This document shows positions 5,954 to 38,392 of a DNA stretch of 58,649 nucleotides, piece after piece. The DNA comes from Treponema sp. Its GTDB lineage: Bacteria; Spirochaetota; Spirochaetia; Treponematales; Treponemataceae. Location: NCBI GenBank assembly GCA_017470605.1, contig JAFUYH010000037.1, positions 1-58,649 on the forward strand, in the 5' to 3' direction. Within the stretch, counting starts at the first letter, position 1; every line of letters starts with the position of its first letter. The notes beneath the pieces were generated by a model. The model was given only the letters and a program-made list of their open reading frames with translations, was not told the DNA's origin and searched no databases. The position numbers and the translations under genes were made by a program.

Positions 5954-5958
5954 ATGCC

Positions 5959-5982: not shown

Positions 5983-6005
5983 ATTGTGCATTTGGGAAAA
6001 CAAAA

Positions 6006-7562
6006 ATGGACATAAAAAACATCATTAAAAATCTTCACCCTCTAGAAATCAAGGTTTTATTAAAGTATTCAAAAGATGACGAACTTACTTCAGAAAAACT
6101 TCAGAAGGAACTTGCATATAAGGAAGGTCATGCAAATCAGGCTTTTTCATGGCTTTCTGGAAAATCGCTGTTAAAAGAAATCCGCAGAACTCCTCATACT
6201 TATTTTGAAATTACAGACATGGGACGTGCCCTTGCAAAGACAGGAACCGTAGAAGAACGCATGGTAAACTTCTTAAAGGCAAACGGCGCCCATACAATGC
6301 CGGAAATTGCTGCAGGAATCGCTCTTGAACAGAAAGATGTTGGTTCTGCCTTTGGCCCTCTTGTAAAAGAAGGCGTTCTTAAAATGAATGCAGAAAAGAA
6401 GGTTGAATATACAGGTGCCGCACTTCCTGAACGTATTTCCCTTACAATGGGTCTCATTAAAAAGGCCTGTGACGCTGCAGACGGACTTCTTAATAAAGAT
6501 GACCTTTCTGCCGCAGAAGTGTCTGCCATGGAGGGGCTTGCAAAAAAACGAGGTGCAGCAGATTCTCCATTCAAGATGATTGAACGCGAAACTGTATTTT
6601 ATAAACTTTCAGACGGTTTTGAAAAAATACGTGATGCCCTTAAAAATGCCGGCGTTACAGGAAATGAAATTGGTGAAATTACACCAAAAATGCTTGCTGC
6701 AGGAGACTGGAAAAACGGTACCTTCCGCGGTTACAACATTGCCATTCCTCCAGCCCGCATTATTCCTGGCCGCACAAACCCTTACGTTCAGTTCCTTGAA
6801 AGCGTAAAAGACAAGCTTTGTTCTCTTGGTTTCCAGGAATTTGACGGGCCGCTTGTAGAAACAGAATTCTGGAACGGTGATGCCCTCTTTATGCCGCAGT
6901 TCCACGCTGCCCGCGATATTCACGATGTTTACCGCATTAAAAATCCTACTCATGCAAAATTTATTGAAGAACCATATCTGAGCAACGTAAAGGCTGCCCA
7001 CGAAACTGGTGGAAACACCGGCAGCCGCGGCTGGAATTACACTTTTGATAACGAGTTCACACGCCGCCTTATTCTGCGCTCTCAGGGAACAGTTCTTTCT
7101 GCACATCAGCTGCATAAGGCAGAAGTTCCTGGCAAATACTTTGGTATTGCCCGCTGCTTCCGCTACGACAAAGTAGACGCAACCCACCTTTCAGACTTCT
7201 ACCAGACAGAAGGTATTATCGCCGGTAACGACGTTACTTTGCGCGACCTTCTTGGTATGCTCAAAATGTTCGCAACAGAAATTGCCGGAGCAGAAGAAGT
7301 AAAATATGTTCCGGGTTACTTCCCGTTCACAGAACCTTCTATTGAAGTTCATATCAAGCACCCTGTTTTGGGCTGGTTTGAGCTTGGCGGTTCCGGTATT
7401 TTCCGTCCGGAAGTTACAAAGGCCATGGGCCTTGACTGTCCTGTTCTTGCATGGGGTATCGGTATTGACCGCATGGCCCTTATGGCTCTTGGCCTTAATG
7501 ACCTGCGTGAACTTTTCTGTGAAGACATTGAAAAAGTTCGTCTTCGCAAGGCTAAGTTCTAG
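6006..7562 (+). CDS. pheS: phenylalanine-tRNA ligase alpha subunit, archaeal type
   Basis: 518 residues from the ATG at 6006. It charges tRNA-Phe as part of an alpha2-beta2 enzyme. The N-terminal winged-helix-like DNA/tRNA-binding repeats (about 1-210) are typical of archaeal/eukaryotic PheS, which spirochaetes are known to carry. The class II core follows, with motif 2 (GIARCFRYDKVDATHLSDFY) and motif 3 (GIGIDRMALMALG). An in-frame TTG at 5964 would add residues encoded by a palindromic repeat, so I reject it. pheT is not adjacent, unlike in most bacteria. Confidence 0.94.
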   Translation: MDIKNIIKNLHPLEIKVLLKYSKDDELTSEKLQKELAYKEGHANQAFSWLSGKSLLKEIRRTPHTYFEITDMGRALAKTGTVEERMVNFLKANGAHTMPEIAAGIALEQKDVGSAFGPLVKEGVLKMNAEKKVEYTGAALPERISLTMGLIKKACDAADGLLNKDDLSAAEVSAMEGLAKKRGAADSPFKMIERETVFYKLSDGFEKIRDALKNAGVTGNEIGEITPKMLAAGDWKNGTFRGYNIAIPPARIIPGRTNPYVQFLESVKDKLCSLGFQEFDGPLVETEFWNGDALFMPQFHAARDIHDVYRIKNPTHAKFIEEPYLSNVKAAHETGGNTGSRGWNYTFDNEFTRRLILRSQGTVLSAHQLHKAEVPGKYFGIARCFRYDKVDATHLSDFYQTEGIIAGNDVTLRDLLGMLKMFATEIAGAEEVKYVPGYFPFTEPSIEVHIKHPVLGWFELGGSGIFRPEVTKAMGLDCPVLAWGIGIDRMALMALGLNDLRELFCEDIEKVRLRKAKF

Positions 7563-20600: not shown

Positions 20601-23600
20601 GTCATCTTCAGGAGAATTTACCCCTCCAGAGGACAGTAATTACCAGAAAATTGATGCCGCAAATGGAAGTTTTGGAATTCCAATGGTCTTTGATGAAAGA
20701 ACTGCAGAACCTGAAAGCGGACATCTTTGTGAAGGTAAATATACCCTTTACATAAAAGCAGAAGACAAGGCTGGAAATATTACTGCTAATCCTGTTTCTG
20801 TAAGATTTGATGTGGATAGAAACCCTCCTAAAATAAATGCGGCAACAATTACTGAAACTGCAAGCACGAAACTTTCTGGTAACGTTTATTACTTTAATGG
20901 AGCACTTACAGGAAGTGCCAGTGCAAGCGATACTGCTGGAAGTGCTGATATAACTATTAAATTAGGAAATGAAGAAAAAACTGCTGATTGGAATGGAAGT
21001 ACATGGACTCTAGGGGCAGACCAATTTAAAGATAATGAATTGCAGACTTTGACTATTATTGCAACAGACAGTGTAGGCAAGACTGCAGACAAAGCATTTT
21101 CTATTTATAAGGATGTTACAGGTCCTAGTGTAACTCCTACAAATCCAGGAACTGTATTTGCAGTGCCAACAATAAATGGTTCTGTTACAGATAATAATGG
21201 GGTAGGTGTTGCAAGTATTCTTTGGAGCAACAACGGAACAGATTACAGTCCTGTTTCATCTTATACAGGTGGACGAAATGACTGGTCATACAAATTTACT
21301 TCTGAAGAATTTGGAAATGCCGAAGGTGAAAGAACTTATTACTTTAAGGCGAAAGATGCTCTTGGAAATGAAGGAAGCGTTCTGTCTGTAACATTTAATT
21401 ATGATGCAAATATTCCGGAAGTAATAATAGGCGGTTCGTACACAGAAAATAAACAGTATTATGCAAAAAGCGGATTTACTCTTGAAGGAAAAGCATGGGA
21501 TACAAACCTTTTAAGCGAAGTTATAATTACTCAAAATGGAAGTCCTGTTAGTGATGTTAATCTGACGGGAGCAGAATCAGGGAAATCTTCTGAAAATGCG
21601 GCAACCTGGTCTAAGACATTTACAACAGGTACAAGTACGGGGGGGGCATTGGCTGACGGTGCTTATACATTCAAAATAAGTGCCAAAGATTCTGCAGATC
21701 GTTCTTCTCAGGAAATATCTAGAAATATAATTGTAGATACTGTAGCTCCTGTTGTTACATTAACAGGCTTGCCTGGAAAACAAGATACAAAGAATAAAGG
21801 ATATACATTTACAGGAAGTGCTTCTGATGCAACTTCTGGTGTAAAAGAAGTAAAACTTACAATTTCAAATGGAACAGAAACTCACACAGTTACCGTAGAT
21901 GGAACAACAAGATGGTCATATACTCTTGATTGTGCTTCTGAAGAATGGAAAGATATCTTTGGAGAAAATGGCGACGGTCAAGGTGTAAAATATGTTTATG
22001 TTTCTGCAACAGATGAAGCAGGCCTTTCTAGTACAGGTTTTACTTATACAAAAGATTCAACATCTTATAATGATAATGATAAAAAACTAAGTTTCATTTA
22101 TGATACAGCAGACCCTGTTCTTAGTATAAATGAGTCTGGCTTTATAGAATATATGCCAGCATCAGGACTTACTGTAAGTGGAAGTGCAACAGATACTTAC
22201 CCTAATGGAGCTTTAACACTTACAATTACTGAAAAAAAAGATGGAAATGAAACTGCTGAAAGTAAAAATGCTGAAAAGAATAGAGTGACAATAGGTTCTG
22301 ATGGCAGTTTTACAAAGACATTGCCGCTTTCAGGTTCTGTTTCATCAGATTGTAAATATACATATCAGTTTGTTTTAAAAGATGTTGTTGGAAATACAGT
22401 ATATTCAAAAGAGTTTAATACAACAGTAGATAGAACTGCTCCAACAGTCACAATCACAACGCCTAAAGAAGATTCAACAAAAACTGGTATTAACGCAATA
22501 GAAGAAGCCTCTTATAAATTTGAAGGAGGGGTTACAGAAGAAAACAGTCTTTCTGGAATTTATTATGCAATTAAAAAGAAAAATGACAGTGCTCCAGCGG
22601 CAGTTTCTGCTGGTATAGATGCTTTGGATTCTTCTAAATGGACAGAAAATGGCTTTACTGGTGCAAATGCAGGAACTGCCAGCTGGAATTTCTACCAGCA
22701 GTTTAATAGTGGAACAACAGATGAAAGTGGAAAACTTTCTGAAGGACAAGACTATACATTGTATGTATATGCAGTAGACAAAGCAGGAAATGTTTCTACA
22801 CAGCAATCTCGAAAGTTTGACGTAGACTTGTCTGCTCCTGCAGTTACTTCTTCTGTTACAAAGAATACATATAATTCTACGGATCTTAGCTCAAATAGTG
22901 GAAGTTTTGATGTTACAGGAACTGCTTCTGATACATACGGTCTTGCTTCTGTAATAGTTCATGCTAAAAAATCAGATGGAACTGAAAAAACTCTTACAGT
23001 TACACTTAATAGTGATAATTGGTCGCAGACCTTTATTTTCGGTTCATCTGCCAATACAAATGCGGAAAATTATCTTGCAGAAGGAAAGTACGAAATTTGG
23101 GCTGTTGCAACAGATTTTGTTGGCAAGTCTACACTATCTGATAAACTTCAGGTAACAATTGACTATACGGCACCTGAGATTGATGAAAGTAGTCTTCTTT
23201 TGAATAAACAACCATTTAAAGCAGATAACTGGTATGAATCAAAAACAATTCCTCTTTCTATTTCTGTAAATGATGGAACTGGTTCTGGAATTTCTATGGT
23301 TGAGGTAACTTCTAAGCCAGAAAATGCTGATGCTGCTTGGACTGTAGAAACAGCTCCAGATGAGGATTGGTCTCCTCTTTCTCTGTTGAATGGTTCTTAT
23401 ATGGGAACAACTCAGTTATATGGTTCTGATGGAGAAAAATCTTTCTATATTCGAGCCACAGATATTGCAGGAAACCCTGCCACAATAAAAGAAATTTCTA
23501 TAAAAATAGACTCTTCCGCTCCAGAGTTAGATTTGTATAAATACCAAATTGGCAACGGAGCACTTTCTTCAAATGCGATAGCCTTTATAAATGGTGAAGC

Positions 23601-26600
23601 AATCCTTACTGTTTACGGAACATATTCAGATTCTCAAAGTGGTGTACAAGAACTGAAATTCACAGGGACAAAGAACGATGCTCAGCCAACCGTAACATAT
23701 TCTACAAAGACAGTTACTGACTCTATTGATGATGATTATGAAGAATTTGCAGAAGAAAATAAAACAAATATAAAATCTTGGAAGGCCGTATTTACAAACG
23801 GTGATTCTGGCATTATCACAACTGGCGACCTAAAAGTAACCGGCTATAATAATTCTGGTACAAGGGGCTTACAGACAGAAAAGAAACTTTTTACCCTTAA
23901 TCGTGATATAACACCTCCAACGCTGAGTAACTTAAACATTACAGGCAGCTCTACAAAGTATTCAGTTTATAAGACAGCTGATAATTCCTACTATGTAAAT
24001 AATACAGACGGCAAATTCACAATTACAGGACTTGCAGAAGACCCTGTACCTCAAAACGGTCAGGCTTCTGGTGTGGCAAAGGTTGAATTAACAATAAGCG
24101 GCCTTGCAGCAGATAAGCAGCCAGCTTCGTCTTCTACCGCATACTTTAAGGATTTGGATCTTACTTCTTTATCTGGCGATTCAGTGCTTGCAACTTTGAC
24201 TGTAACCGATAATGCAGGAAACTCTTCTTCAACAAGTCTTACAATTAATTTTGATGTTACAGGTCCTGTCGGCAAACACGAAATTGATAACAAAGGTAAA
24301 GATTTATACTTCCGCTTTGGAGAACAAAACCGTGCAGATGATGACGGAAAGTCAGGCAGTACATGGACTCCTTCTTATGATGCTGCTTTAGATGATGATG
24401 TAGGCGGAAAATATTCTCCTGATACTTATGGTAATCTTGGAACATTAAAAATCCGCGGTAAATTTGATGATTCTGGAAGCGGACTTGCTTTAATTTATTA
24501 CAAACTCTTTACAACAGAACCTTCAGAAAATGACCTTAATCAGTTCTTGAGCAATTATAAGTCTGAAAATAATGGATATTTCTCTCCACTTTCTGCAAAT
24601 GAAACAAGACGTGTATTCTATACCAACGAATCTGGAGTAAAAACTTATATAGAAGTTGAAAGTTCTTATAAAACAACAATAGCAGGCTTGTCAGAAGGAC
24701 AGAACTATCTTGTTCTGCTGGCAGTTGATAATGTAGGTAATGCAAAAATAGATGAAGTCAAAATAGATGAGTCTACATATAAAAATTACAGAATAAATGT
24801 AGACCAGACTCTTCCTGTTGTTTCTGCAGATTCCAGCGAGGTAATTTATACCAATGCAGAGACCAACGAAACTGTTTCTGGAACCTACATTGATGACGCC
24901 GCCTGGCTCAAAAAACTTACTATAAACATTGGTTCAAATGCCATACCTGCCTCTTCAACTTCAGACGCAATTGCCAATGTTTCTATAACTAAAGATGGAA
25001 CTTCGTTTACATCAGATGACTTAAAAGGTGAAAAATATTCATATTTAAAGAAAGGTTCTAGAATTAAAATTGATGACAATTATTATTACGTAACAGATGT
25101 TTCTGCCCTTTCAACAAGCGGTCAAATTTCATTTACGCCAGTTTTTGCAAGTGAAACAGGTTCTTATTCAGTATACTTTGGTTCTGGAACATGGTCTGCT
25201 GTAATTCCTGCCGATACTCTGAAAACTTATGCAGATAATGGACGTTCGGTAACGGTTTCTGCCGTTGCAACAGACAATGCAGGAAGCGGCAACACAACAA
25301 CGGAACCTTCTGTGGCAACAATTGTTGTAGACAGAACTTATCCAGAAGTAACAATTGATTCTATTAATTCTATAATAAACAAAGATGTAAAGTTCACTGT
25401 AAATGCAAGCGACAGAAACCCTCTGTCTGCCATAACTTTACAGTACAAAAAGAAGTCTGAATCAGATACAGCTTGGAAAACCTATGCTTCAATTACTTCA
25501 GACTCAGAAACCTTAAATAATCCGCATAAGTGGGAAATTACTGTAGACACAGCAGATTCTACAAAATTTGATGATGACACAGATTATGACTTCCGTGCTT
25601 ATGCAAAAGACCTTGCCGGCAATGAAGGAAATGCAGGTACCAGCCGAACCGCTTCTGCCTATTCAAGTTCTAAAGTTCGTTCCGCAAAAGTTTCCCAGGA
25701 CAGCGACAGGCCAGTTATCAAGATTACAGATTTAACATTGCCAGCAACAGCAGGTTTAACAATAGCTTGCCCTGTTACAGATTTAAGCTTTACAATTTCT
25801 GATGATGACGGAGCAATCACTGCTGAAAATGTTTCTTATCAATTGACAGCAATAACAAATGGTAATGTAACAGAGCCTGCAGACTCTGGCTGGATAGATA
25901 GTGAAAATGCAGAAAACAAACTTACCTATACAAACGGTTCTTTTGTTTTGAAGAACTTAACCCAAGGAGAACAGGCTCTTTGGTTCAAGATAATAGATAG
26001 TATTGGTACAACCTTTGCTTCTGATAATTCTTCTGAGTCAAAGCTTACATCTCCAAGGATTACAGACAGTTCTGCAAATAATACTGTATATTCAGCTAAT
26101 ACGGCATTAAAACTTAAGGTAGATACACAGGCTCCAGAAATTTCAGATTTGAAATTCCTTAGAGTAAGTTCAAGTGCTTCTTATTCAAGTACAGATTGGA
26201 ATGAAGAGTCAAAACTTAGTTCGCAGGTATTTGGAGGTCCTGATTCTAATTATCAGAATAAATTTAAGTTAAGTCTTTATGCTTATGATGCAAATACTGT
26301 AACTTCTGTAAAACTGACTGTTCCTTCTTCTGATGGTGATGTAAGCGGGGCTGTCTATGAATATGAATTCACAAAGGCAGAAACAACTGTTGACGGTCTT
26401 ACCTCTGCAAAAAATGTGAACGGAAATAATTATGATTTATGGGTATCTCCAGAAATTTCTGTTGAAAAGTTTGTTTCTTCTTCACGAACAGGTGTAATAG
26501 AAGTTACAGAAGGAGTAAAGCCTAGAACAGTAAATGTAACATTAAATATAGACAATACACCACCTCATTTAGGAAAGAATTTCACACCAACTGCTACCGA

Positions 26601-29600
26601 ACCTGTAGTAGGAGAAGTAAAAGTTCGTGGTGAAGTTGCAGATAATGATGGCGGTAGTGGATTCAGCAGCACCGGATTAAAATATTATATTCCAAAGAGT
26701 TCGGAAACAAATGCTTCATCTGTTGCAGATTCTAACTGGACTGAACCTACATCTCCGGGTTCTTCAACATGGCAGATAGTTTTATCAGATTTAAATTCTT
26801 TGCTAATTTATGATTCAGAAAATGAAACTGTATCTGATGACTATAAAAACTATGGAAATGATCTTGATGGTCTTTATAGCATTCCTATCTGGTTTAGATT
26901 AGAAGATAAAGCTGGTAATGTCGGCTATGACACAAGTTCTGTTAAGATTCTGTACAATCCTAATGCAGATAAGCCAATGGTTGCCATTACAGAGCCTGTT
27001 CATGACACTCCTGCAGATAACCCGACTTATGTAATTGCGGGTGGAAAATTCAAGATTCGCGGTTCTGCAAAAGATAATGTAGGAATTAACGGCGTATACT
27101 TACAGTTTGATATGGACGGTGACGGCATTTACGAAAATGGAAATGGAATTACAGGAGCACCTACATTAAACCTTGTTAATATACCAAACAAAAAGACCAA
27201 TGGCGTACAGGAAAGGGGTGTTCTTGCAAGTGGAACAGATAACTGGTCTTATGACTTTGATGCTATAAGTCTTACAGATAACATTACAATGAAAGTAAGG
27301 GCTATTTCTGTAGATAGAGGTCATGATACTGATAAGAATCTTTATAGTTCATGGACTCCTGTTTTGAATATCATAATAGAAAATGTAAAACCGCAATTCT
27401 CTGAACCTGAACTTAGAAAATATAGTTCTGCATTTACAGAAGGAGCAACCGCAGCTGCAACAACAAGTGCCGCAGATAATTATATTGCTCAAAAGAACTA
27501 CCAGAAAAATATGTATATAAAAGAATCAAATACAGAAGGTTCTGAACACTGGTATGTTTATGGTGAAATTTTTGTTAAGAGCGAAAACTATATAACAGAA
27601 GTTTCTACTACAGGCTCAAATATAGGTTCTTGGAAAGGTGCTGCAGGTACAAAAACTTCACAAGATGGTATTATTTCCTGGTCAGATAATGCTGGTGTAA
27701 CTCAAAAATATTTAATTCCTATTGAGCGTGTTAATACAAATTCATGGGAAACAACTGTTACGGCAAAAGGCAAGAATACAACCGATTCAAAGAATGAAAA
27801 TGAATACACATTAAATATTACAATAGACAATAACGCCCCTATTTTTAGCGATAAAAATGCTGCCGCTGATATTGCAAGCCTAGGAGAAATAAAACTTTAC
27901 AAAGACAGCTATGGTGGAAAAGTCCTTCTTCCTAATTCAACAGGAGAAAATGCTCTTTATAATAAAAATGCACTTGTTACAATTACTGGAAAAGTTGAAG
28001 AAGACGGAAGTGGATTTGAAAAACTTGCTTTCTTCTTTAAACGTGGTGACAAAATCTACAGTGTAAAGGAAAATTATAATTGCACTTTTGAAACCAATTC
28101 TGACGGCTTGCCTGTATTAAAAGGTACCGCAGTCGTCAATACAGACGGAATCAGAGCTGATTCATACAAAGTTGAAGTAAGCGGAATATCTGCAAATAAG
28201 AACATTCGCAAAGGTGGCCTTGTAAAAATTGGAGGCGTTTACAGAAAGATAACAGATAAAACAGGTGATGTTGTTACTTTTGACACAGAATGTAAGACTT
28301 CATTTACAGATGTAGAATTTGTCTATGCTATGGTGGTTGATTCTTCTAAGGAAAATTTAAAACAAGATTATAGCATAGGTGATGATGACGGAGACGGAAT
28401 GTATGAAAACTTCAGTAATGTAGGTAATTACTACACTTGGGAAGTTGCCGTTGATTCCAAAAATATTCCAGACGGCCCAATTGAAATCGGCTGTGTTGTT
28501 TTTGATAATGCTGGAAATATAACAGCTGGAAATACAAAAACTTATATCAGCAATAATCCTCCTCGTATTACAAGTGTAATGCTTGGTACAGACTTGAATG
28601 CAGATACAAAATACGATTTAAGTTCTGAATTTGATACATTCTATTATAGTCAGTCTGACAATGGCATTGCAAATAAGAAAACAGGAACTGATATTTGGAA
28701 TCTTGATGCTAAGAAAAATAATGGAGAATATTGGACTGCAAAGAAAGACCTTGTTGTAATTCCAGAATTTGTTGGTGGTAATGGAAGTATTTATTATACA
28801 TATTCCAAGAAAACAGGAAGTGCAGGTGCAAAACTGACCGTTGCTGAAAATCTTGTAGAAAGTGATTCGGCTAAATTGATAACTGCACATAACTCGTTTA
28901 TAGGGGAACTTCCTGCTGCCGAAGAAGGTAACACTAATGGCGCTCTCGTTTTAGTAAATGGAGATACAGATACTCTTGGCTATATTTCAACAACAGGTGA
29001 TTATGAAAAAGGTTCTAATGACGGTCTAAATGTTTACAGATTCAGCTTCTGGGATTCTACAGCAGGCTGTACTGTTGGAACAGATTCTCAGTGGTCTCTG
29101 GTAAATATTACAATGAAGCAGGATTTATCAGACGGAACCGCCCCAACAGGCGAAATTATACCATTCTATTGGAAAAGTAAGGCAGATAATGACAATTCTG
29201 TGCAGTGGGATAGTAGCGGAAAAGCTCTTGGACACATAGAACTTCCATCAGATTTGCCTAATGGAACATTTAAAGATGATAGCGGAGAATACGACCGTGA
29301 CCCTAAAGTTTCCGGTAAGATTGAGGTTGAAGGAACTGCTTATGATGAAACAATGCTCAAGACAATAACAGTTACTTTTGATAACAAGAGCGTTAAGGCA
29401 ACATATTCATCTTCTACAGGCTGGACTTACGCAACAAATTCAGATGATTTCAAACTGACCGTTACAGATGCCAATGGCCCAACTCAGGAAGGTCACTCTG
29501 TAACATGGCTCTACGAAGTTGATACTTCAAAAGCCAGTGCCGTAGCCGCAACCGACCGTGTTATTAAGGTAGAAGTAACAGATGCAAGTTCCGCCAACTC

Positions 29601-31746
29601 CGGTAATGGAAATGCAAATACCGTGGGCACAACCCAAACCGGTGGCACCGACGGAACTGGCACTAAGACGCCTTATTACAAGGTGGATGTGGTGCCGTAT
29701 ATTACTGAGGTTACAACAAATCTGAGTAGCTTCAATAGAAATAAGCCGTCAGTTTATTCAAGAACAGCAATTGGCAATTATGCTGTACGCTCAGGTGAAA
29801 GTATTACAATTAAAGGCTTTAACTTAAAGAATTCTCAAAACAGTGTTGTAACAATTGGTGGTAAAAATAATTCGTTTACTTCTACATCACAATCTGCAAC
29901 AGAAATTACAGGAACAGTCGCTAACGCTGCAACTTCTGGTGAGCTTGAACTGTATGCTTCTGATGGAACCAATAATATTTATGCACTCAATAATACGAAT
30001 AATAATGATTCTCGTGGAAAAGCAGCTTCTCTTGGTTCAGATAATAGCAATGGTTACAACCGTCAGCCAAACGGATTAAACAACAATCTGCTTACAGATG
30101 ATGTTGTACTCGATGTTTATGAATTTACAACTGTTGCAACTCCAAAGAATGGTAGTATTTCAGATCCATTTATGCGAATAAATCCAAAGACTGGACAACC
30201 AGGCTTCTGTTTTAGTAATGCAGTTTTGTATTTCAACATGCCTGGTTTTGAACAGACAAATACAACAACTTATAGTCATACAACCTTTGGTGCAGATAAC
30301 GGTGGTTATGTAAATGGAACATTCGCATGGGATGCGAACGGAAATTCTTTTGGAATTGCAACCTGTACCGATACTGGTTGGCCTGCAGAATCTGTTTCTA
30401 CTGTTTTGTTCTCGAAGCGTTCACCAACATTAAATGCAAATATGTGGAATACTCAGCAGGCATATAAAAATGCTATCTACCAAAGAGGTATTGAGAGTAC
30501 AACAATCTGTTTGACAGAAGATCAACCTACTGATTCTTCAAAATACACAACAGATACTGCACGAGTAATGTCTCCTGCAATTGCAACATCTGTTTCTGGC
30601 AATACTACCACCTTGTATGTTGCATACTATGATCGTCTTACAAAGCAGGTTAGATTCCGTTCAGGAACTGTTGCAAACGATGCAAATACCATTGGTGGTG
30701 CATTACAAGATATTTTCTATAGAACAACAAATGGTTCAACCTTGCGAGGAGCGCCTGACTCTATTTATGTAGATGGTTCTTCAAAATCTGGAACCGATGA
30801 TTCTTCTACTACTATATCGCAAAACACAGTTACAGGTACTTCAAATGGACGTATAGAAATCGTAGCTTCAAAGAGTCTAGGAGATTCTTATCTTGCAGCT
30901 TACAGAAATGATACAACTTATGGTCCTGGAGAATATGTTGATATTGGTATAAGTGGTTCTTATGTTGTCATTACATGGTACGATTCTGTAAACCGTAAGC
31001 TTATGGTTTCTTATGAAAATCCTTCAAGCTTACAGCATGATTCAGTTGTTGCAACTGGAACTCTTGCCCGTTCTGGCGACTGGCAGTCAAATGCCTTTGC
31101 AGTTGAAAATTCAACTGGTGTTGGTTTGTATGTAAAGATGGCAGTAGATCCTGCTAACGGTATACATCTTGCATATTACAACAACAATGGTGCAGACTTG
31201 AAGTATGCTTATATTTCTCAATCAGACCTTACACAGAAAAAGGTAACTAAAGTTCAAACTGTTGATGCATATAATAATACTGGAGCCCGCCCAACAATTG
31301 ATGTAACTCGTGTTGCAGATACAAGTGTAACTGGTGGTTATAAGTATGTGCCATATATTGGATATCAGATGAATTCAAACTTGAATACAACAGCTTCTGC
31401 TCGTGTTGCTTATCCGGTTAAGTTTGATGATAACGGAATCCCTGCTGGTGATGGTGCAGACAGTCAGGATATGTGCACTGGTAACTGGGAAATAAAAACT
31501 GTTCCAACACAGAATACACCAATTGATGCAAAGGTAAGTGCTGGTGTCTGGACTTCTGGAACTGACAAAGTTCACACAGCAATACCAAGCGGAACTGATA
31601 CATTTGAAAATCAGAGTGCCACAAAAACAATCAACGCTCAGGCAACAGGCCAGAGAGCCATTATCTGGGGTAACGGTACATTGTATCCTGTAATTTCTTA
31701 TGCAGTCAGCGAAGAAGGTAAACTCGAAATGGCTCAGATGAAGTAA
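17689..31746 (+). CDS. giant Ig-repeat surface lipoprotein with switchable C-terminus
   Basis: 4685 residues. The N-terminus has a signal peptide and a spirochaete-like lipobox (FLFSTC, Cys about 24), so it should be lipidated and displayed on the envelope. Residues ~30-3960 form a chain of about 26 Ig-like beta-sandwich modules, each ending near AGN and each starting after a linker such as VDTVAP, VDRTAP or IDNTPP. This architecture fits adhesins and long surface fibres. Around residue 4005 a TIG/IPT-like segment begins (RSGESITIKGFNL), followed by a C-terminal beta-rich region with repeats like LYVAYYDRLTKQVRF and IHLAYYNNNGADLKYAY, possibly a propeller. A 42-bp recombination repeat at codons ~3992-4006 divides constant from switchable parts. 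Ligand unknown. Confidence 0.85.
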   Translation: MKKSRVFGILSSVFVFLFLFSTCEIGLGASVDTEAPALSVTIPSAEKVTVLRGDFPVRGNYKDDGSIASVDIVLKQNDKTAGEYQAEITPTPKVAGEGTWSTVISPDEAGIPDGSYSVEITISDKAGHKTSSVSQIVIDNTAPIIVLTRPSTKEGSSSPDTYGQTFSLEGQAADDNNVSLIEVQIYSDADCTNLVHTVPLKNVPNSINMDVAKFVKDDVENDYYKIYGSSTTDAGEKQLYCKIIAYDGAEHYPEDGSEQTDEDKKGNSTEEYYLYKDISTSILQNYKITEVYEMLNGTYAGSDSSRAAASLNVRELLNQNVTKKGFFALNPKNNPTFSVTGQSPLAMDGTDFTGTAHNISNGQSVVVEVSPGLDGILLDESSLKVYARLCDAKGVENTSAAKIYMPVKMAASGTSYRFTATINLSDGFKIGQNYVFGVEGYDQSEAKNPILPSGKAYGFHMATTGKAPTLVLTNPASTTTYIGKNNAKQTFSGSITVEAGTPVLTIYNGSSVVKQFEFTESQAQEVDAGLQYSFSYEYTAFGNSSAQYNFKVDAVQDTLNTSIERTVVYDRDPPDVNILSTSPVVDNILKYKEDDESGNPVEGNKYLNGNVDFTVAVVDDFDVVNASSVIWNVLKDDKVIKSAVISNPTRESFTLNTTEFDEGNITLKIAAADRAGNSIEESYNYIIDQKTDIPVILPGDSDSITFLNDTIAKYNAQTGTKKGIATVGSTLVFKLHDDDGLKSITIKNSKNSINSDSDTVTEWEDYSQKESERSIIEPHSLSGTDTTFSYMLPTDGGYYKFNVVVEDKNGTKNEKTFVLNVTKAAAEIKTVSPDRKYAKSGLKIKNAIKIVESQEPYIITRTIGSNTEKFENLSNSAFSDDGFIDEIDVKSLLQNGANTVSYHIKDGNERDGNTLDVILTRDDLEPEKVVITSPAAGRTGNNSLTDISLTFGGTLNDKDSEIEKLWYYFAKSSSGEFTPPEDSNYQKIDAANGSFGIPMVFDERTAEPESGHLCEGKYTLYIKAEDKAGNITANPVSVRFDVDRNPPKINAATITETASTKLSGNVYYFNGALTGSASASDTAGSADITIKLGNEEKTADWNGSTWTLGADQFKDNELQTLTIIATDSVGKTADKAFSIYKDVTGPSVTPTNPGTVFAVPTINGSVTDNNGVGVASILWSNNGTDYSPVSSYTGGRNDWSYKFTSEEFGNAEGERTYYFKAKDALGNEGSVLSVTFNYDANIPEVIIGGSYTENKQYYAKSGFTLEGKAWDTNLLSEVIITQNGSPVSDVNLTGAESGKSSENAATWSKTFTTGTSTGGALADGAYTFKISAKDSADRSSQEISRNIIVDTVAPVVTLTGLPGKQDTKNKGYTFTGSASDATSGVKEVKLTISNGTETHTVTVDGTTRWSYTLDCASEEWKDIFGENGDGQGVKYVYVSATDEAGLSSTGFTYTKDSTSYNDNDKKLSFIYDTADPVLSINESGFIEYMPASGLTVSGSATDTYPNGALTLTITEKKDGNETAESKNAEKNRVTIGSDGSFTKTLPLSGSVSSDCKYTYQFVLKDVVGNTVYSKEFNTTVDRTAPTVTITTPKEDSTKTGINAIEEASYKFEGGVTEENSLSGIYYAIKKKNDSAPAAVSAGIDALDSSKWTENGFTGANAGTASWNFYQQFNSGTTDESGKLSEGQDYTLYVYAVDKAGNVSTQQSRKFDVDLSAPAVTSSVTKNTYNSTDLSSNSGSFDVTGTASDTYGLASVIVHAKKSDGTEKTLTVTLNSDNWSQTFIFGSSANTNAENYLAEGKYEIWAVATDFVGKSTLSDKLQVTIDYTAPEIDESSLLLNKQPFKADNWYESKTIPLSISVNDGTGSGISMVEVTSKPENADAAWTVETAPDEDWSPLSLLNGSYMGTTQLYGSDGEKSFYIRATDIAGNPATIKEISIKIDSSAPELDLYKYQIGNGALSSNAIAFINGEAILTVYGTYSDSQSGVQELKFTGTKNDAQPTVTYSTKTVTDSIDDDYEEFAEENKTNIKSWKAVFTNGDSGIITTGDLKVTGYNNSGTRGLQTEKKLFTLNRDITPPTLSNLNITGSSTKYSVYKTADNSYYVNNTDGKFTITGLAEDPVPQNGQASGVAKVELTISGLAADKQPASSSTAYFKDLDLTSLSGDSVLATLTVTDNAGNSSSTSLTINFDVTGPVGKHEIDNKGKDLYFRFGEQNRADDDGKSGSTWTPSYDAALDDDVGGKYSPDTYGNLGTLKIRGKFDDSGSGLALIYYKLFTTEPSENDLNQFLSNYKSENNGYFSPLSANETRRVFYTNESGVKTYIEVESSYKTTIAGLSEGQNYLVLLAVDNVGNAKIDEVKIDESTYKNYRINVDQTLPVVSADSSEVIYTNAETNETVSGTYIDDAAWLKKLTINIGSNAIPASSTSDAIANVSITKDGTSFTSDDLKGEKYSYLKKGSRIKIDDNYYYVTDVSALSTSGQISFTPVFASETGSYSVYFGSGTWSAVIPADTLKTYADNGRSVTVSAVATDNAGSGNTTTEPSVATIVVDRTYPEVTIDSINSIINKDVKFTVNASDRNPLSAITLQYKKKSESDTAWKTYASITSDSETLNNPHKWEITVDTADSTKFDDDTDYDFRAYAKDLAGNEGNAGTSRTASAYSSSKVRSAKVSQDSDRPVIKITDLTLPATAGLTIACPVTDLSFTISDDDGAITAENVSYQLTAITNGNVTEPADSGWIDSENAENKLTYTNGSFVLKNLTQGEQALWFKIIDSIGTTFASDNSSESKLTSPRITDSSANNTVYSANTALKLKVDTQAPEISDLKFLRVSSSASYSSTDWNEESKLSSQVFGGPDSNYQNKFKLSLYAYDANTVTSVKLTVPSSDGDVSGAVYEYEFTKAETTVDGLTSAKNVNGNNYDLWVSPEISVEKFVSSSRTGVIEVTEGVKPRTVNVTLNIDNTPPHLGKNFTPTATEPVVGEVKVRGEVADNDGGSGFSSTGLKYYIPKSSETNASSVADSNWTEPTSPGSSTWQIVLSDLNSLLIYDSENETVSDDYKNYGNDLDGLYSIPIWFRLEDKAGNVGYDTSSVKILYNPNADKPMVAITEPVHDTPADNPTYVIAGGKFKIRGSAKDNVGINGVYLQFDMDGDGIYENGNGITGAPTLNLVNIPNKKTNGVQERGVLASGTDNWSYDFDAISLTDNITMKVRAISVDRGHDTDKNLYSSWTPVLNIIIENVKPQFSEPELRKYSSAFTEGATAAATTSAADNYIAQKNYQKNMYIKESNTEGSEHWYVYGEIFVKSENYITEVSTTGSNIGSWKGAAGTKTSQDGIISWSDNAGVTQKYLIPIERVNTNSWETTVTAKGKNTTDSKNENEYTLNITIDNNAPIFSDKNAAADIASLGEIKLYKDSYGGKVLLPNSTGENALYNKNALVTITGKVEEDGSGFEKLAFFFKRGDKIYSVKENYNCTFETNSDGLPVLKGTAVVNTDGIRADSYKVEVSGISANKNIRKGGLVKIGGVYRKITDKTGDVVTFDTECKTSFTDVEFVYAMVVDSSKENLKQDYSIGDDDGDGMYENFSNVGNYYTWEVAVDSKNIPDGPIEIGCVVFDNAGNITAGNTKTYISNNPPRITSVMLGTDLNADTKYDLSSEFDTFYYSQSDNGIANKKTGTDIWNLDAKKNNGEYWTAKKDLVVIPEFVGGNGSIYYTYSKKTGSAGAKLTVAENLVESDSAKLITAHNSFIGELPAAEEGNTNGALVLVNGDTDTLGYISTTGDYEKGSNDGLNVYRFSFWDSTAGCTVGTDSQWSLVNITMKQDLSDGTAPTGEIIPFYWKSKADNDNSVQWDSSGKALGHIELPSDLPNGTFKDDSGEYDRDPKVSGKIEVEGTAYDETMLKTITVTFDNKSVKATYSSSTGWTYATNSDDFKLTVTDANGPTQEGHSVTWLYEVDTSKASAVAATDRVIKVEVTDASSANSGNGNANTVGTTQTGGTDGTGTKTPYYKVDVVPYITEVTTNLSSFNRNKPSVYSRTAIGNYAVRSGESITIKGFNLKNSQNSVVTIGGKNNSFTSTSQSATEITGTVANAATSGELELYASDGTNNIYALNNTNNNDSRGKAASLGSDNSNGYNRQPNGLNNNLLTDDVVLDVYEFTTVATPKNGSISDPFMRINPKTGQPGFCFSNAVLYFNMPGFEQTNTTTYSHTTFGADNGGYVNGTFAWDANGNSFGIATCTDTGWPAESVSTVLFSKRSPTLNANMWNTQQAYKNAIYQRGIESTTICLTEDQPTDSSKYTTDTARVMSPAIATSVSGNTTTLYVAYYDRLTKQVRFRSGTVANDANTIGGALQDIFYRTTNGSTLRGAPDSIYVDGSSKSGTDDSSTTISQNTVTGTSNGRIEIVASKSLGDSYLAAYRNDTTYGPGEYVDIGISGSYVVITWYDSVNRKLMVSYENPSSLQHDSVVATGTLARSGDWQSNAFAVENSTGVGLYVKMAVDPANGIHLAYYNNNGADLKYAYISQSDLTQKKVTKVQTVDAYNNTGARPTIDVTRVADTSVTGGYKYVPYIGYQMNSNLNTTASARVAYPVKFDDNGIPAGDGADSQDMCTGNWEIKTVPTQNTPIDAKVSAGVWTSGTDKVHTAIPSGTDTFENQSATKTINAQATGQRAIIWGNGTLYPVISYAVSEEGKLEMAQMK
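29664..29705 (+). other. proximal inversion site inside the lipoprotein gene
   Basis: 42 bp identical in reverse complement to 35099-35140. It encodes KTPYYKVDVVPYI near residue 3992-4006 of the giant protein. The half-site CTTATTACAAGG faces inward. The outer half-site ACTGGCACTAAG matches the complementary arm in 8 of 12 positions, as if constrained by coding. Confidence 0.8.
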
Positions 31747-31963
31747 GTTAAAACAATGCACAGACAAGCAGAATATCCGGATCGAATTAGCGGTGCCATC
31801 TGAAGCTTTATAATCATCCAAAGTTTTTCCTTTTTCAGGTGTTTTTTTAATTATTTTCACAGAATTTTGGTAAAAATGAAATCTAGCGGCCATTATATAT
31901 ATAGGGGGTATGTAAAACAACTAGACATCCAAATTTAAAGAGTTACCCCATCAAGGAGATTTC

Positions 31964-32806
31964 ATGGACACAGAAAAAAGTATTTATCACCACAAACCAA
32001 TTGAAGAACTTACATTTACAGATGACGGCATGTTTCAAGCCGTGCTACATGAACCTGACATCTGTGCCGAACTGATTGAACGTCTTCTGCACATAAAAGT
32101 GCACCACGTAGACTATCCCGAACTAGAAAAACAGATTGCGCCGTATTACACAAGCAAAGGTGTCAGATTAGACGTCTATGTGAAGGATGAGGATAAGATT
32201 ATTGATATAGAACTGCAGGCACATCCTAAACTGGCTCTAGGTAAGCGCACCCGCTATTATCAGTCGATGATCGACATGGACAGCCTGATGAAGGGCGAGA
32301 ACTATACCAAACTTAAGGATAGTTACATTTTGTTTATTTGCAAATTCGACCCGTTCAGCGATGAACAAGAGAGAAAGTATGGACTCCCCTGTTACACTTT
32401 TAGAAATATCTGCCAGGAAAATTCCGCAGTAAATTTAAATGACAATTCCGTAAAAGTCTTTTATAATGCAAAAGCATACAAAGAAGAAAAGGACGAGCGG
32501 ATTCAAAAACTGCTCCACTTTATATGCACCAACGAGCCGGGTGAAGATGAATTTTCAAATCGCCTTGCCAGACTTGTTGAGAAAATCAAAGATGATGAAA
32601 AATTCAAGGATACCTATAACGCAATGAATTTACATGATTTTGATATACAGATGGCCGCCAAGCAGGAAGGTGAACACGACGCAAGAATTGAAGCTGCTAA
32701 AAGTTTCTATGCTAATGGAGCTTCAATCGAGTTGATTGCAAAGTCTCTGAACATGACTGAAGAACAGGTCAAAGAGATTGTCAGCGAAGTTGTTGTCGCA
32801 CATTAG
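31964..32806 (+). CDS. Rpn/PD-(D/E)XK nuclease-family putative transposase
   Basis: 280 residues. Matches the Rpn-type recombination-promoting nuclease / PD-(D/E)XK transposase family (PF12784). FTDDGMFQAVL opens the domain, D70 is in GVRLDVYV and the E83-x-Q85 pair is in IIDIELQA, giving the D...ExQ nuclease core. RYYQSMID follows. The C-terminal ~60 residues are a helical tail with an HTH-like ASIELIAKSLNMTEEQVKEI. A strong AAGGAG ribosome-binding site precedes the ATG. It lies inside the invertible segment and would flip with it. These genes are often multicopy in treponemes; a role in the switch is unproven. The 217 bp upstream hold only an AT-rich promoter-like stretch. Confidence 0.85.
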   Translation: MDTEKSIYHHKPIEELTFTDDGMFQAVLHEPDICAELIERLLHIKVHHVDYPELEKQIAPYYTSKGVRLDVYVKDEDKIIDIELQAHPKLALGKRTRYYQSMIDMDSLMKGENYTKLKDSYILFICKFDPFSDEQERKYGLPCYTFRNICQENSAVNLNDNSVKVFYNAKAYKEEKDERIQKLLHFICTNEPGEDEFSNRLARLVEKIKDDEKFKDTYNAMNLHDFDIQMAAKQEGEHDARIEAAKSFYANGASIELIAKSLNMTEEQVKEIVSEVVVAH

Positions 32807-32808
32807 TC

Positions 32809-33039
32809 AAAGATGATGAAAAATTCAAGGATACCACCTATAACGCAATGAATTTACATGATTTTGATATACAGATGACCGCTAAGCAGGAAGGCGAACA
32901 AGCAGCAAGAGTTGAAGCTGCTAAAAATCTTCTCAAAATGAATCTAGGAACTGTTGAACAGATTGCACAGGCAGAAGGCCTTTCTATTGAACAAGTCAAG
33001 GAATTGGAAAACGAAGTGATGGCATCTCAGGCTAACTAA
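32809..33039 (+). pseudogene. truncated second C-terminal tail of the Rpn-family gene
   Basis: Directly after the stop of the Rpn-family gene, about 100 bp of that gene (from about 32586) are repeated almost exactly, with a 3-bp insertion, and then diverge into another tail. The readable part is KDDEKFKDTTYNAMNLHDFD... ending LGTVEQIAQAEGLSIEQVKE. It lacks the nuclease core and a ribosome-binding site, although an internal ATG at 32848 opens 63 codons. It is probably the remnant of a tandem paralogue or of a tail-swapping recombination. Confidence 0.7.
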
Positions 33040-33091
33040 TGTTTCGTTAGCCAGCTCCGCAGACAGAAGAAGAAACGTAAGAAAAAAAATA

Positions 33092-33226
33092 GCACCCGCC
33101 GATGTCACAACCACCAACGGGTGCAAAGCCTAGAAAACTAGGTTAACCTATTTGGAGGCAAGACGCTTGATTGCGTATACCTTTCTTTTTAATGTAAAGC
33201 ACTTACTGTGAAAAAGCAAGTGCTTT
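33092..33226. other. cluster of hairpins at the 3' side of the silent cassette
   Basis: Four ordered inverted repeats: GCACCCG/CGGGTGC (33092-33124), CCTAG-AAAA-CTAGG (33129-33142) overlapping the 12-bp palindrome TAGGTTAACCTA (33139-33150), ACGC/GCGT (33163-33176) and AAAGCACTT/AAGTGCTTT (33196-33226). The last could terminate convergent transcripts. The cluster could be a structured RNA, a mobile-element end or regulatory DNA. I cannot assign a known family. Confidence 0.4.
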
Positions 33227-33240
33227 GATGGTATATACTT

Positions 33241-35121
33241 TTAGTGTCCGCTGCCATTACCTACATAGTAAGCAACACGATAGAGGTCTCCAGGTGTAAA
33301 GCCAACGGCGGCTTCCCACTCTGCACTTGCCGGTGTCGGGTGAGCTTCAATACAAGACTTTACATTTGAGACTTTCTGGCTCAATGCAGCCGTCATTGTT
33401 TCCCATCCGCCTTCTGCCGTGCCATTGCAATCCAAGTCAAGGGTTGAATCCCAGAAAGCAATGTTCATACCGTCAAAGCTGTTGATTCGGCCAAGATATG
33501 AAATATAAGGAACGGTTCCTTTCACTGTAAGGTCGATGTTTGTTGCAGAATCAGCAACTACGACACTCTGACCAAAGGTGTACTTTGTAGAACCATCTGC
33601 AGAGGTATTTGTTGATTTAATGTAACACAATTCGCCCTTTGTATTCTGGAATACAATGTGAAGATAGCCAGATGAATCAATATCACAGGCAATGTAGTCT
33701 ACCATGGTTCCATAGTTGTTATCATCTGAGGATAATACATCCTGAACTTTCCAGGTTGTCGCAGAACCTTTTGGCGTTGTACTCAGTGCACGAGCGAGTT
33801 TAAGAACTCCATTGTCAGCATCATAATAAACAATTACAGGATAATTAGATTTTGTCAGAGCAAGAGACAATGACTCTCCCGTTGCTTCAGTTCTAGCAGT
33901 ATCTTCAAACTGATCTGTGCCCAATGAGTAATTATTATTATCAAATTTAATTACATATCTTTCTGAACCGTCATCAGTAGTATATGTCTCAAAATCTGCA
34001 CAGTCATAATATGTTGCATTCCATCCTTGACCGACCCGATGACTTGTCGTCGTTGGGGTAAGTCTTGTTGGATAATTATCATCCTCAGAATCTTTGCCTC
34101 CATCGATATTAATCCATGATATTTCATGATAATCAGCATAATCATAACCTGTATATACTGTATTATTATAATACATATTAAAACTTTCTGAAGGATTATA
34201 ATCTCCCGCAATTTCAGAATAATGAATTGAATTAGTTACAGTATCATAATATGCAACATGAATGAGTCCATCGTTTGCAGTGTCAACGCGCTTAATGTTC
34301 AAATTCTTAAACTGTTGTAACTGCTGATTATGATAGAATAATTCAAACCTAAATGCATTATTATCTTGTCTAGAACAATCTATTGCAGGTGCATTGCTGT
34401 CGTATGCATAAAGTCCACCAGCACTAGTTGAATTTGAAGTCCAGTTAAATGAGTTTCCTCCATGATAATTTGCAGAATAGAAAACATTTACTTTATTAGC
34501 ACCAGCGACTGAAATTGCAGTTTCTTCAGGTGGATCATAGCCATGATAAACTTGTGTCGCAGTCTGGCTTGTTATAGCAGCATAGTAGACATCAGATTTA
34601 GAGTAATTACTCCAAGATGCATACAATGTTCCACCAGAGCCCATTGCCATTGACGGATAAATCGGCAGTGTACTTCCTGCAAAGTAGTCGTCTGCATTAC
34701 TTTGCCATACGCGTACATAACGGGTATCTGTCCAATAGTCTGTAGAAGAAACATTTGCTGTGTTTTCCTTGTTGTAGTCAGCACTGTCTTTATTCAAATT
34801 GTTCAAAGACTTAATACTTGTTCCGTCTTTTGTCATAGAAACTGTAAGATATCCGTCTTTTGCAGTTGCAGGCATTGTAAATGAAAGTTTAGAGCCAGCT
34901 GTAACTACGGTAGGAGAAGTCAGATTGTAATCTGTTCCAGTACCATCAGCTTTTGTGTTCAAAGTAATTGCAAGTGTATAACCTGTAGGAGCATCCAGGT
35001 TAAAGCCTTCAATCGTGTTTTCAGTTTCTCCACGCAGCAATGGAGTTGCACCAGAACGCGCCCTGTTTGTGTTGTACTTGCTGTTTCGGCTTACCTTCGT
35101 AATATACGGCACCACATCCAC
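33241..35121 (-). CDS. silent alternative C-terminal cassette of the giant lipoprotein
   Basis: 626 codons open on the minus strand, beginning inside the distal 42-bp repeat (VDVVPYITKVSRNSK). There is no ribosome-binding site, no signal peptide and no credible start: reading upstream in frame meets a TAG about 46 bp before the nominal GTG, so it should be silent in this orientation. Its layout parallels the expressed C-terminus: a TIG-like opening (RGETENTIEGFNL against RSGESITIKGFNL) and then beta-rich repeats such as LIHVAYYDTVTNSIHYSE and YLHIVFQNTKGELCYI. The sequences are otherwise strongly diverged. After inversion it would become the C-terminal ~625 residues of the lipoprotein. I see no stop codon within it. 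Confidence 0.8.
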   Translation of the reverse strand: MDVVPYITKVSRNSKYNTNRARSGATPLLRGETENTIEGFNLDAPTGYTLAITLNTKADGTGTDYNLTSPTVVTAGSKLSFTMPATAKDGYLTVSMTKDGTSIKSLNNLNKDSADYNKENTANVSSTDYWTDTRYVRVWQSNADDYFAGSTLPIYPSMAMGSGGTLYASWSNYSKSDVYYAAITSQTATQVYHGYDPPEETAISVAGANKVNVFYSANYHGGNSFNWTSNSTSAGGLYAYDSNAPAIDCSRQDNNAFRFELFYHNQQLQQFKNLNIKRVDTANDGLIHVAYYDTVTNSIHYSEIAGDYNPSESFNMYYNNTVYTGYDYADYHEISWINIDGGKDSEDDNYPTRLTPTTTSHRVGQGWNATYYDCADFETYTTDDGSERYVIKFDNNNYSLGTDQFEDTARTEATGESLSLALTKSNYPVIVYYDADNGVLKLARALSTTPKGSATTWKVQDVLSSDDNNYGTMVDYIACDIDSSGYLHIVFQNTKGELCYIKSTNTSADGSTKYTFGQSVVVADSATNIDLTVKGTVPYISYLGRINSFDGMNIAFWDSTLDLDCNGTAEGGWETMTAALSQKVSNVKSCIEAHPTPASAEWEAAVGFTPGDLYRVAYYVGNGSGH

Positions 35122-35157
35122 CTTGTAATAAGGCGTCTTATTACAAGGTTGATGTGG
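35099..35157 (-). other. distal inversion site with full palindromic core
   Basis: Contains the 42-bp repeat (35099-35140). The outer flank completes a near-perfect palindrome at 35113-35156: arms of 20 bp with one mismatch, core CCTTGTAATAAG-gcgt-CTTATTACAAGG. Paired 11-12 bp arms around a short centre are the usual form of a tyrosine recombinase core site. The recombinase gene ends 26 bp further on. Confidence 0.75.
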
Positions 35158-35182: not shown

Positions 35183-35989
35183 TCACCAGGTTACAGTTTT
35201 GTTGATTAGATCTTCTTGTTCTTTGGAGGTTTTTCTAAGGTAGATTCGGGTGGTAGAAAGGTTTTCGTGACCTAATAAATCTGCTAAAAGAGAAATGTCG
35301 GGGCAGCGAGATAGAAAATTTTTAGCAAAGAGATGGCGAAAGGCGTGAGGATGAACAGATTTTGGGTTTATTTTGTATTTCTTGGCATAAGTTTTTAGTT
35401 GAATTGCAATGCCTTTGGCACTTATTTGCTTATTATATTTGTTAAGAAAGAGGTAGCCACTTTGGCGTCCTTCGGAAATCAGCCATTTTTGTATTTCTTT
35501 TGAAAGCTTGTCTGGTAAATAGATTCTTCTGTATTTTTCGCCCTTTGCATATAAATCAATAATGTTTTCTTTGATATCTTCAATTTTAAGTCTTGTTAAT
35601 TCACCAATTCGCATTCCTGTCGCGCCTAGAACCCAGACTATGAGAAGCCATTTTACTTTGCCGTCTCTTTTCAGTTGATTTTTCAGGAGCTCGTAATCTG
35701 TGTTAGAAATTATATTATCAGTAAAGCTTTTGTTCTGAATTTTTATAAAGGATAAAGAAAGTTTTTCTTTGTGAGAAAATTTTAGATATTGATTTATTCC
35801 CTGAATCCTTAGATTAACAGTTTGTGCCTTATAATTTCTTGTCAAAAAGTCCTTATATTGAATTAAGTTCTGTTTTGTAATCCATTTATATTTTGAAAAA
35901 AAGTGATTGACTGAGCTAGTGTAAGCTGTAATTGTGTTTTTAGATAAATTTTTGTTCAAAAGATAAGTTGTAAAGTCTGAGATATTCAT
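35183..35989 (-). CDS. tyrosine recombinase, probable DNA invertase
   Basis: 268 residues. The N-terminal SAM-like core-binding domain is at about 1-85, and the catalytic domain is at 90-268. All catalytic residues are visible: R127 in GATGMRIGEL, K149 region, H215 and R218 in HAFRH, H241 in LLGHENLSTT and nucleophile Y250 in TRIYLRK. Its size is like XerC/D and phase-variation invertases rather than large phage integrases. An AGGAG ribosome-binding site precedes the ATG at 35989. It lies just outside the invertible segment, so its own orientation does not change. It is more AT-rich than flanking housekeeping genes, suggesting acquisition. Acting on the 42-bp sites is inference from adjacency. 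Confidence 0.9.
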   Translation of the reverse strand: MNISDFTTYLLNKNLSKNTITAYTSSVNHFFSKYKWITKQNLIQYKDFLTRNYKAQTVNLRIQGINQYLKFSHKEKLSLSFIKIQNKSFTDNIISNTDYELLKNQLKRDGKVKWLLIVWVLGATGMRIGELTRLKIEDIKENIIDLYAKGEKYRRIYLPDKLSKEIQKWLISEGRQSGYLFLNKYNKQISAKGIAIQLKTYAKKYKINPKSVHPHAFRHLFAKNFLSRCPDISLLADLLGHENLSTTRIYLRKTSKEQEDLINKTVTW

Positions 35990-37670: not shown

Positions 37671-37709
37671 CGGTGGTTTCGATACGTCCTTCGGGCTACT
37701 CAACCACCG
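37671..37709. repeat. palindromic repeat family A copy
   Basis: CGGTGGTTTCGATACG ... CTCAACCACCG, 39 bp. It supplies the stop codon (TGA) and the final residues GIGG of the convergent gene at 37700-38392, and separates it from the phosphohexomutase gene. Confidence 0.75.
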
Positions 37710-38392
37710 ATTCCAACAAACGCCGTGACCGATTTTTCTGGTGCCATAATCAGAGTGTCCATGAGTGTAAGTCCGATTCTGGTGCAGGGAAGCAGGCGGA
37801 AAAAGTCCTTCTGCACTTGCAGGGGAACATCGCCAAAGCCCGGGCTGTAACGAGGCTTCGTTTTCAGTCCCTCTGCCGCGGCGATTTTTTTTATCTCTTC
37901 GTTTACTAAATCAACTAATTCTTCTATAAACATTGCGCCGGTGGCCTGCAGAATGCTTGCGTAAACAGGATCCAGCGAACTGTGGCGGCGGATGAGGGCA
38001 TCTACCTGAGGGCCAATTGTGGCGGCAAGCAGGGCCACCTTTGAGCAGCCGGCTAGGTTCCTGCCCAGGTCGCGAGAGTGGAGTGTAACATCTGCAAATC
38101 GGAGTGTTACGGTGGTTGAGTAGTCCGAAGGAGGTATTGAAACCACCTGATCTGTCGGCTCATACGGTGGTTTCGATACACCGTTGTCGCGGCACTCAAC
38201 CACCGATAAATCATATATCTCAAAAACAGCTTGAGGCTTCATGGCCGCCAGCATTTCTGAGGCGGCCTTTTGCATGAGTGCGCTTACTTCGGCATCTGGC
38301 GGGGTTGTGCGGCGGTAGCCCAGGTAGCGGGCGGTTTCGCTCATATCTGGTGTGAAGTTTGTTTTGTCGGGAAAAAGGAAATTTACACTCAT
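37700..38392 (-). CDS. B12-dependent methionine synthase activation-domain-like protein
   Basis: 230 residues. Resembles the stand-alone reactivation domain of MetH: EtARYLGYRRTTPPD at the N-terminus, SKVALLAATIGPQVDALIRR in the middle, and PRYSPGFGDVPLQVQKDFFRLL plus IGLTLMDTLIMAPEKSVTAFVGI at the C-terminus, where AdoMet-binding residues lie. It probably helps reductively methylate the cobalamin of methionine synthase, which would suit its genome also making AdoMet (metK at 46499). Residues 63-95 are encoded by two inverted copies of a palindromic repeat inserted in frame, an unusual expansion. A TATAAT box (38400-38405, minus) ends 7 nt from the ATG. Confidence 0.85.
   Translation of the reverse strand: MSVNFLFPDKTNFTPDMSETARYLGYRRTTPPDAEVSALMQKAASEMLAAMKPQAVFEIYDLSVVECRDNGVSKPPYEPTDQVVSIPPSDYSTTVTLRFADVTLHSRDLGRNLAGCSKVALLAATIGPQVDALIRRHSSLDPVYASILQATGAMFIEELVDLVNEEIKKIAAAEGLKTKPRYSPGFGDVPLQVQKDFFRLLPCTRIGLTLMDTLIMAPEKSVTAFVGIGG
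38110..38205. repeat. two palindromic repeats inserted in frame in a gene
   Basis: Copy 1 (38110-38148, CGGTGGTTGAG...AAACCACC) and copy 2 (38165-38205, CGGTGGTTTCG...CAACCACCG) belong to repeat family A and are oriented head to head around a 16-bp spacer. Total 96 bp, exactly 32 codons, open in the frame of the MetH-activation-type gene. It encodes a Pro/Ser/Thr-rich insert. Confidence 0.8.

Follow-up and report, generated by a model that had tools for sequence, protein, structure and literature searches.

In Mycoplasma pulmonis, site-specific inversion sets the constant 5' part of a surface gene (vsa) before the 3' end of a silent copy, and the tyrosine recombinase HvsR controls vsa and also the hsd (type I restriction) loci (PMC2268961, PMC4948785). 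The PsrA system of Streptococcus pneumoniae (cod, Spn556II) combines a full hsdS, silent inverted copies and a tyrosine recombinase at one locus and swaps the 3' part of hsdS at a 15-bp repeat, and the 2016 paper on it lists Treponema medium and T. denticola as having homologous systems (PMC4948785, PMC7096588). In the shufflon of IncI plasmids (Rci, pilV), variants of the pilus protein PilV arise by recombinase-driven inversions. Here we describe a locus on a contig of 58,649 nucleotides from Treponema sp. (JAFUYH010000037.1; this whole contig, G000:C39 of a genome of 3.37 Mb in 53 contigs, is called the window), where a predicted tyrosine recombinase probably inverts a neighbouring 5.4-kb segment and would thereby swap the C-terminal end of a giant predicted lipoprotein between two states, a reading to which we give a probability of roughly 0.8.

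HvsR acting on both vsa and hsd is the closest precedent and PsrA the closest one for layout, each being likened to the window recombinase by description. The anatomy of the window fits vsa in that a lipoprotein-like gene has a constant start and an alternative end (surface location and swap are predicted), whereas vsa is a multigene family of a mollicute and the window, from a spirochaete, holds a single giant gene and a single spare end. HvsR acts at surface and hsd loci alike, whereas a separate relative of the hsdS-linked enzymes lies at the surface-protein gene of the window, with no hsdS among the neighbours tested (Methylase_S was not found among the 16 window stretches scanned with Pfam). 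The likeness to the PsrA type lies in the recombinase, 47-55% identical to 18 homologues of which 13 stand beside hsdS, and in a site resembling the repeats of hsdS loci; the target of PsrA is hsdS, whereas that of the window is a giant surface-protein gene. The shufflon swaps the C-terminus of PilV and has several segments and sfx sites, whereas the window has one segment and a 42-bp coding repeat. In intragenic invertons an inversion within a gene alters the protein, whereas the 5.4-kb segment of the window brings a whole spare end and has a recombinase gene at the locus. Among the titles and abstract openings listed for Treponema none reported such a switch, subscription journals being mostly outside the scope.

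The locus is made up of the following predicted features.
17689 to 31746, forward strand: giant predicted lipoprotein gene, an open reading frame (ORF) of 4685 codons with immunoglobulin (Ig)-like repeats, to which the proximal end is now joined
29664 to 29705, forward strand: proximal copy of the 42-bp repeat, residues 3992-4006, predicted recombination site (exact inverted match; top matrix ranks)
29706 to 31746, forward strand: proximal C-terminal end, currently joined, predicted to be beta-propeller-like (ends of relatives and structure model)
33092 to 33124, reverse strand: terminator-like hairpin with a T-run, past the stop codon of the spare end (consensus scan)
33241 to 35121, reverse strand: spare C-terminal end, a start-less frame of 626 codons (open for 639 codons)
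35099 to 35140, reverse strand: distal copy of the 42-bp repeat (exact inverted match)
35112 to 35157, 46 bp, no strand: dyad formed by the distal site and a third half-site in opposite orientation (19-nt arms, 8-nt centre, 1 mismatch)
35183 to 35989, reverse strand: tyrosine recombinase of 268 amino acids, relative of hsdS-linked recombinases (PF00589, E 1e-28)

The preliminary description of this DNA had reported an exact 42-bp inverted repeat inside the giant gene and downstream of it, and both copies were confirmed at their coordinates, within a 55-nt pair of 91% identity. The tyrosine recombinase that it had seen next to the distal copy carries the expected domain and lies 42 bp away. The start-less open frame that it had noted beyond this copy does run in the matching phase, reading KTPYYKVDVVPYITKV... 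in the same phase as KTPYYKVDVVPYITEV... of the giant gene; the first start-type codon is a GTG within the repeat and no signal-peptide-like start was seen by eye. Three features of an inversion switch are present, namely inverted repeats bounding a segment, a recombinase at the locus and an alternative product in frame (626 codons without a stop). By this mechanism the recombinase would invert the segment between the exact repeats and place one or the other of two C-terminal ends behind the constant first ~4,000 residues; these ends extend ~680 (proximal) and ~620 (spare) residues beyond the repeat, close to the ~625-680 first proposed. Each end has its own stop codon and that of the spare end is followed by the hairpin, the consensus scan of the region giving 4 terminators against 2.5 expected. 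As both states would be in frame, inversion would change the end and would not turn the gene off, in line with the always-on switch first suggested; an on/off switch was rejected for this reason, and an attL/attR reading because the repeats are inverted. The spare end is preceded on its own strand by the recombinase gene, from which transcription may read through into it. We infer the inversion, the activity of the enzyme, the surface display and a change of ligand from the sequence, where the N-terminus of the giant protein looks lipobox-like or lipoprotein-like by eye and its Ig-like domains belong to Pfam Big_13 and Big_3_3.

The two copies of the repeat are identical over all 42 bp, silent positions included. 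Their 37-mer core, with up to 3 mismatches allowed, occurs at just these two places in its own genome and is absent from 96 other genomes. Five letter shuffles of the window retained no exact inverted match of 20 nt, which argues against chance, and together with the core being found only twice in the genome this ruled out a chance origin. With two core copies genome-wide and one extra half-site, multiple invertible segments of the shufflon kind are absent.

The recombinase frame is intact and its motifs are presumably of the catalytic type. Two further homologues (30-31%) are encoded elsewhere in the same genome, and those at 47-55% identity occur in 17 of 200 genomes of the genus, its own included; more distant recombinases in the tree comparison are 27-35% identical. 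We fetched the neighbourhoods of the 18 other copies, at 17 loci of which several are truncated by contig ends, and found hsdS beside 13 of the 18, at 12 of the 17 loci in 11 genomes (L070, L071, L072, L073, L103-L105 and L107-L111; Pfam Methylase_S, with one PADLOC match to a specificity subunit). A frequent layout has the recombinase together with one full hsdS and an inverted partial one, and these are apparently hsdS-shuffling loci. At locus L106 (7690-7737), a 19-nt perfect dyad lies just upstream of the recombinase homologue, with no partner site in 18.5 kb.

Short exact inverted repeats connect the copies at hsdS loci, CAGACCTTATGAGAAGGTG or most of it at L070, L107, L108, L109 and L110, CCATTATGAGAAGTTCGCGGATGG at L071 and TTGTTATTATGAGAAGTT at L103 and L104; no such short pair was present at L072, L105 and L111, and L073 was left out of this comparison. 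The hsdS repeat of the relatives reads CAGACCTTATGAGAAGGTGGA, and we infer these repeats to be the working sites of those enzymes. A pattern scan of the 12 hsdS loci gave 48 hits, of which 15 were dropped as judged to lie outside that part of HsdS and 33 were used, sorted by eye into 13 PYEK, 7 other inner and 13 N-terminal HYE(K/Q)F sites. With a matrix of the 13 PYEK sites, the two window repeats ranked 1-2 of 117,244 positions (28 wide) and 1-2 of 117,262 (19 wide). They ranked 2-3 (28 wide) and 1-2 (19 wide) with a 20-site matrix, 5-6 (28 wide) and 1-2 (19 wide) with all 33 sites, and 98-99 and 70-71 with a control matrix of the 13 N-terminal HYE(K/Q)F sites. When 45 homologous DVVPY-type junctions in the fetched loci were scored, the window copies reached 19.4, the next 5.6 and the mean was -12.3, so the shared protein motif does not explain the site match. 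Since by sequence the recombinase goes with homologues that mostly stand at hsdS loci in this genus, and its site matches theirs, an enzyme of the hsdS-switching kind may now be working on a surface-protein gene.

The third half-site (35135-35157) is inverted relative to the distal repeat and direct relative to the proximal one; as the outer half of the dyad it ranked 4 and 5 in the 19-wide matrices P and P+YH. If it recombined with the proximal site, the outcome would be excision instead of inversion, and a further excised state may be conceivable as an idea only.

The profile of the spare end matched 20 of the 200 genus genomes, 11 of them near-full-length. Nine of these eleven matches lie in frames of at least 1943 codons and two are stand-alone, one in the genome of the window and one in the metagenome-assembled genome (MAG) RUG14753 (G208). 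In T. bryantii the homologue ends a 3882-residue protein and is 78% identical to the spare end, the aligned bodies being 27-32% identical. In both T. bryantii and G038 a convergent gene of the Rpn family comes after the end, which is the order that the window would have after inversion; those Rpn proteins are only 31% identical. Among the giants listed from the protein database no close relative of the giant gene was found (best 52% over residues 3500-4200). Approximate ratios of nonsynonymous to synonymous substitution (dN/dS) for the spare end, compared with its counterparts in T. bryantii, G038 and RUG14753 (the stand-alone copy), were 0.137, 0.091 and 0.14 respectively, and the frame is free of stops where random substitution at 20% averages ~14. 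The spare end thus looks kept under purifying selection, which is not as expected of an end that is never expressed. The end swap proposed in the preliminary description gains support at the sequence level from the spare end being fused in relatives, from this selection and from repeats that match hsdS-locus sites. A switch that once inverted and is now locked in this lineage, leaving the spare end as a relic, would agree with the single orientation known (that of the database copy P0001 included) and with the divergence of the recombinase on its long branch. It is unlikely, given that the 42 bp are identical even at silent positions, that the spare frame is intact at a dN/dS of 0.09-0.14 against the stops expected, and that the recombinase retains an intact frame with motifs presumably of the catalytic type.

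The same layout was met in two other species. A contig scan for the end family gave 12 loci, 10 of which continue into an upstream frame of at least 875 codons; L079 lies near a contig edge, and at L077, in RUG14753, the end stands alone, its frame being open for 34 codons further upstream. In this MAG the spare end (P0002, listed on 6 contigs in the protein database) and the junction of a giant gene are connected by a 93-bp inverted repeat with 5 mismatches. The neighbouring recombinase (439 amino acids, PF00589) has no match to the enzyme of the window at E 1e-6 and has relatives in 70 of the 200 genomes, and in the site scoring above the two junction copies of RUG14753 reached -6.6 and -12.1. 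The genome G109 consists of one contig and is estimated to be 81% complete; in it, a giant gene and a 992-codon stand-alone frame meet tail to tail (L186, 2363-8406) and are linked by 411-bp inverted arms with 2 mismatches, their ends being 39% identical; Rpn-family genes adjoin the pair. Neither the window nor the RUG14753 recombinase has a match in 36 kb of G109, a finding that favours inversion by general homologous recombination or some other enzyme in place of the neighbouring recombinase. For the window we regard this as quite improbable, since 42 bp is short for general homologous recombination and the site match is specific. At L185 of G109 (2-7260) a giant gene is apparently split into overlapping frames (2-4645 and 4642-7260) near its end, by a frameshift or a sequencing error.

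Stand-alone ends of the proximal type were sought as candidates among the matches listed, and more may exist. The stand-alone proteins P0003, P0009, P0019 and P0021, whose start lies at or close to the junction motif, could be additional cases or else fragments at contig edges. The short-frame candidates G103, G195 and G002 were dropped for having no inverted repeat >20 nt, and G032 and G025, at contig edges by their coordinates, were left out of the comparison. Taken with the window, RUG14753 and G109 support spare inverted ends as a recurring device with differing machinery.

The proximal type of end was matched in 120 of the 200 genus genomes. Among the giants listed, the best 120 of 560 hits, all with a related body, 115 had an end nearer the proximal and 5 one nearer the distal type. 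The proximal end is 88% identical to the end of P0076 and 84% to that of P0073, proteins whose bodies are only 27% and 31% identical to that of the window's giant, and in the alignment with P0073 the identity per 50-residue bin jumps from 20-56% to 70-92% at the VDVVPYI motif. End identity that is high where the bodies have diverged, with the change at this motif, indicates that ends were exchanged as modules at the junction over evolution. The segment between the repeats also holds two features.
31964 to 32806, forward strand: PD-(D/E)XK Rpn-family gene (domain search)
32836 to 33039, forward strand: partial duplicate of the tail of the Rpn gene (repeat and ORF analysis)
The duplication of this tail (32586-32926) spans 91 nt at 92% and 29 nt at 100% identity and has left a 63-codon fragment. 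The Rpn-family gene and its duplicated fragment, together with the exchange of ends among giants, could be taken to mean that a new end was inserted and displaced the old one without any switch, the recombinase being an unrelated mobile-element integrase. We consider this highly improbable, as integration by an integrase yields direct and not inverted repeats, the repeat matches the hsdS-locus sites of related recombinases far better than the homologous junctions do, and the inverted layout recurs in two other species.

Pfam and NCBIfam gave no function for either end. AlphaFold models reached a pLDDT of 73 and a pTM of 0.80 for the distal end, and 60 and 0.71 for the proximal end. Many of the Foldseek matches listed for the distal end were beta-propellers, with sialidases and PLL lectins of Photorhabdus (target TM up to 0.59), and those listed for the proximal end included sialidases and the CV39L lectin (target TM 0.58); the query TM of at most 0.34 speaks to the general fold only. 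The models suggest that both ends are beta-propeller-like, so that a swap would probably alter what is bound or displayed by the outer tip, a reading of low confidence.

The two ends of the contig (2-141 and 58510-58649) carry the same 140-bp sequence, inverted and 100% identical; no other exact inverted repeat listed for the window exceeds the 42-bp one. The whole contig is thus bounded by an inverted repeat and its orientation within the genome may be ambiguous. A 38-nt inverted repeat (92%) was also seen at 37672-38147, within and beside a small ORF with a weak Met_synt_B12 match. Repeats may limit assembly, and in a window that is a whole contig with such ends a misjoin might be thought to have created the 42-bp inverted repeat. 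Against this, a near-identical stand-alone spare end lies on a 158-kb contig and the RUG14753 spare end is listed on 6 contigs, and an assembly artefact is barely conceivable.

Several observations weigh against the switch proposed here. The present orientation is the only one known, in the own assembly and with P0001, a second database copy of the spare end (623 amino acids, 2 residues different), which is also stand-alone, on a contig longer than the window. Five of the 18 recombinase homologues (L069, L106, L112, L113 and L114) showed no hsdS nearby and no other target gene was found there, and the window recombinase sits on a long branch (0.96), the tree not fixing its place among the homologues. 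The site sets were chosen by the analyst from the pattern hits, and the repeat lies 5' of the recombinase at L103, L107 and L108 and 3' in the window. In four of the nine fused matches of the spare end one stop codon (which may be the final one) is listed within the matching region, pS of 0.54-0.65 brings dS near saturation and makes the dN/dS values approximate, and the structure models of both ends are weak.

The hsdS link, the dyad and the two other species with the same layout go beyond the preliminary description. We hold it an evenly balanced conjecture that hsdS-type recombinases were captured by giant surface proteins whose junction codons resembled the hsdS site by chance, and that Treponema built end-swapping switches on three or more occasions, using three different recombination machineries. 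The site match provides a specific and testable example in which a recombinase would have moved from hsdS (epigenetic) to surface-protein switching. Giant proteins with a related end are widespread in the genus, and a switch changing only the last domain would offer a handle on their binding and on how surface identity varies in host-associated spirochaetes. That the layout recurs in three species suggests selection in favour of variable tips.

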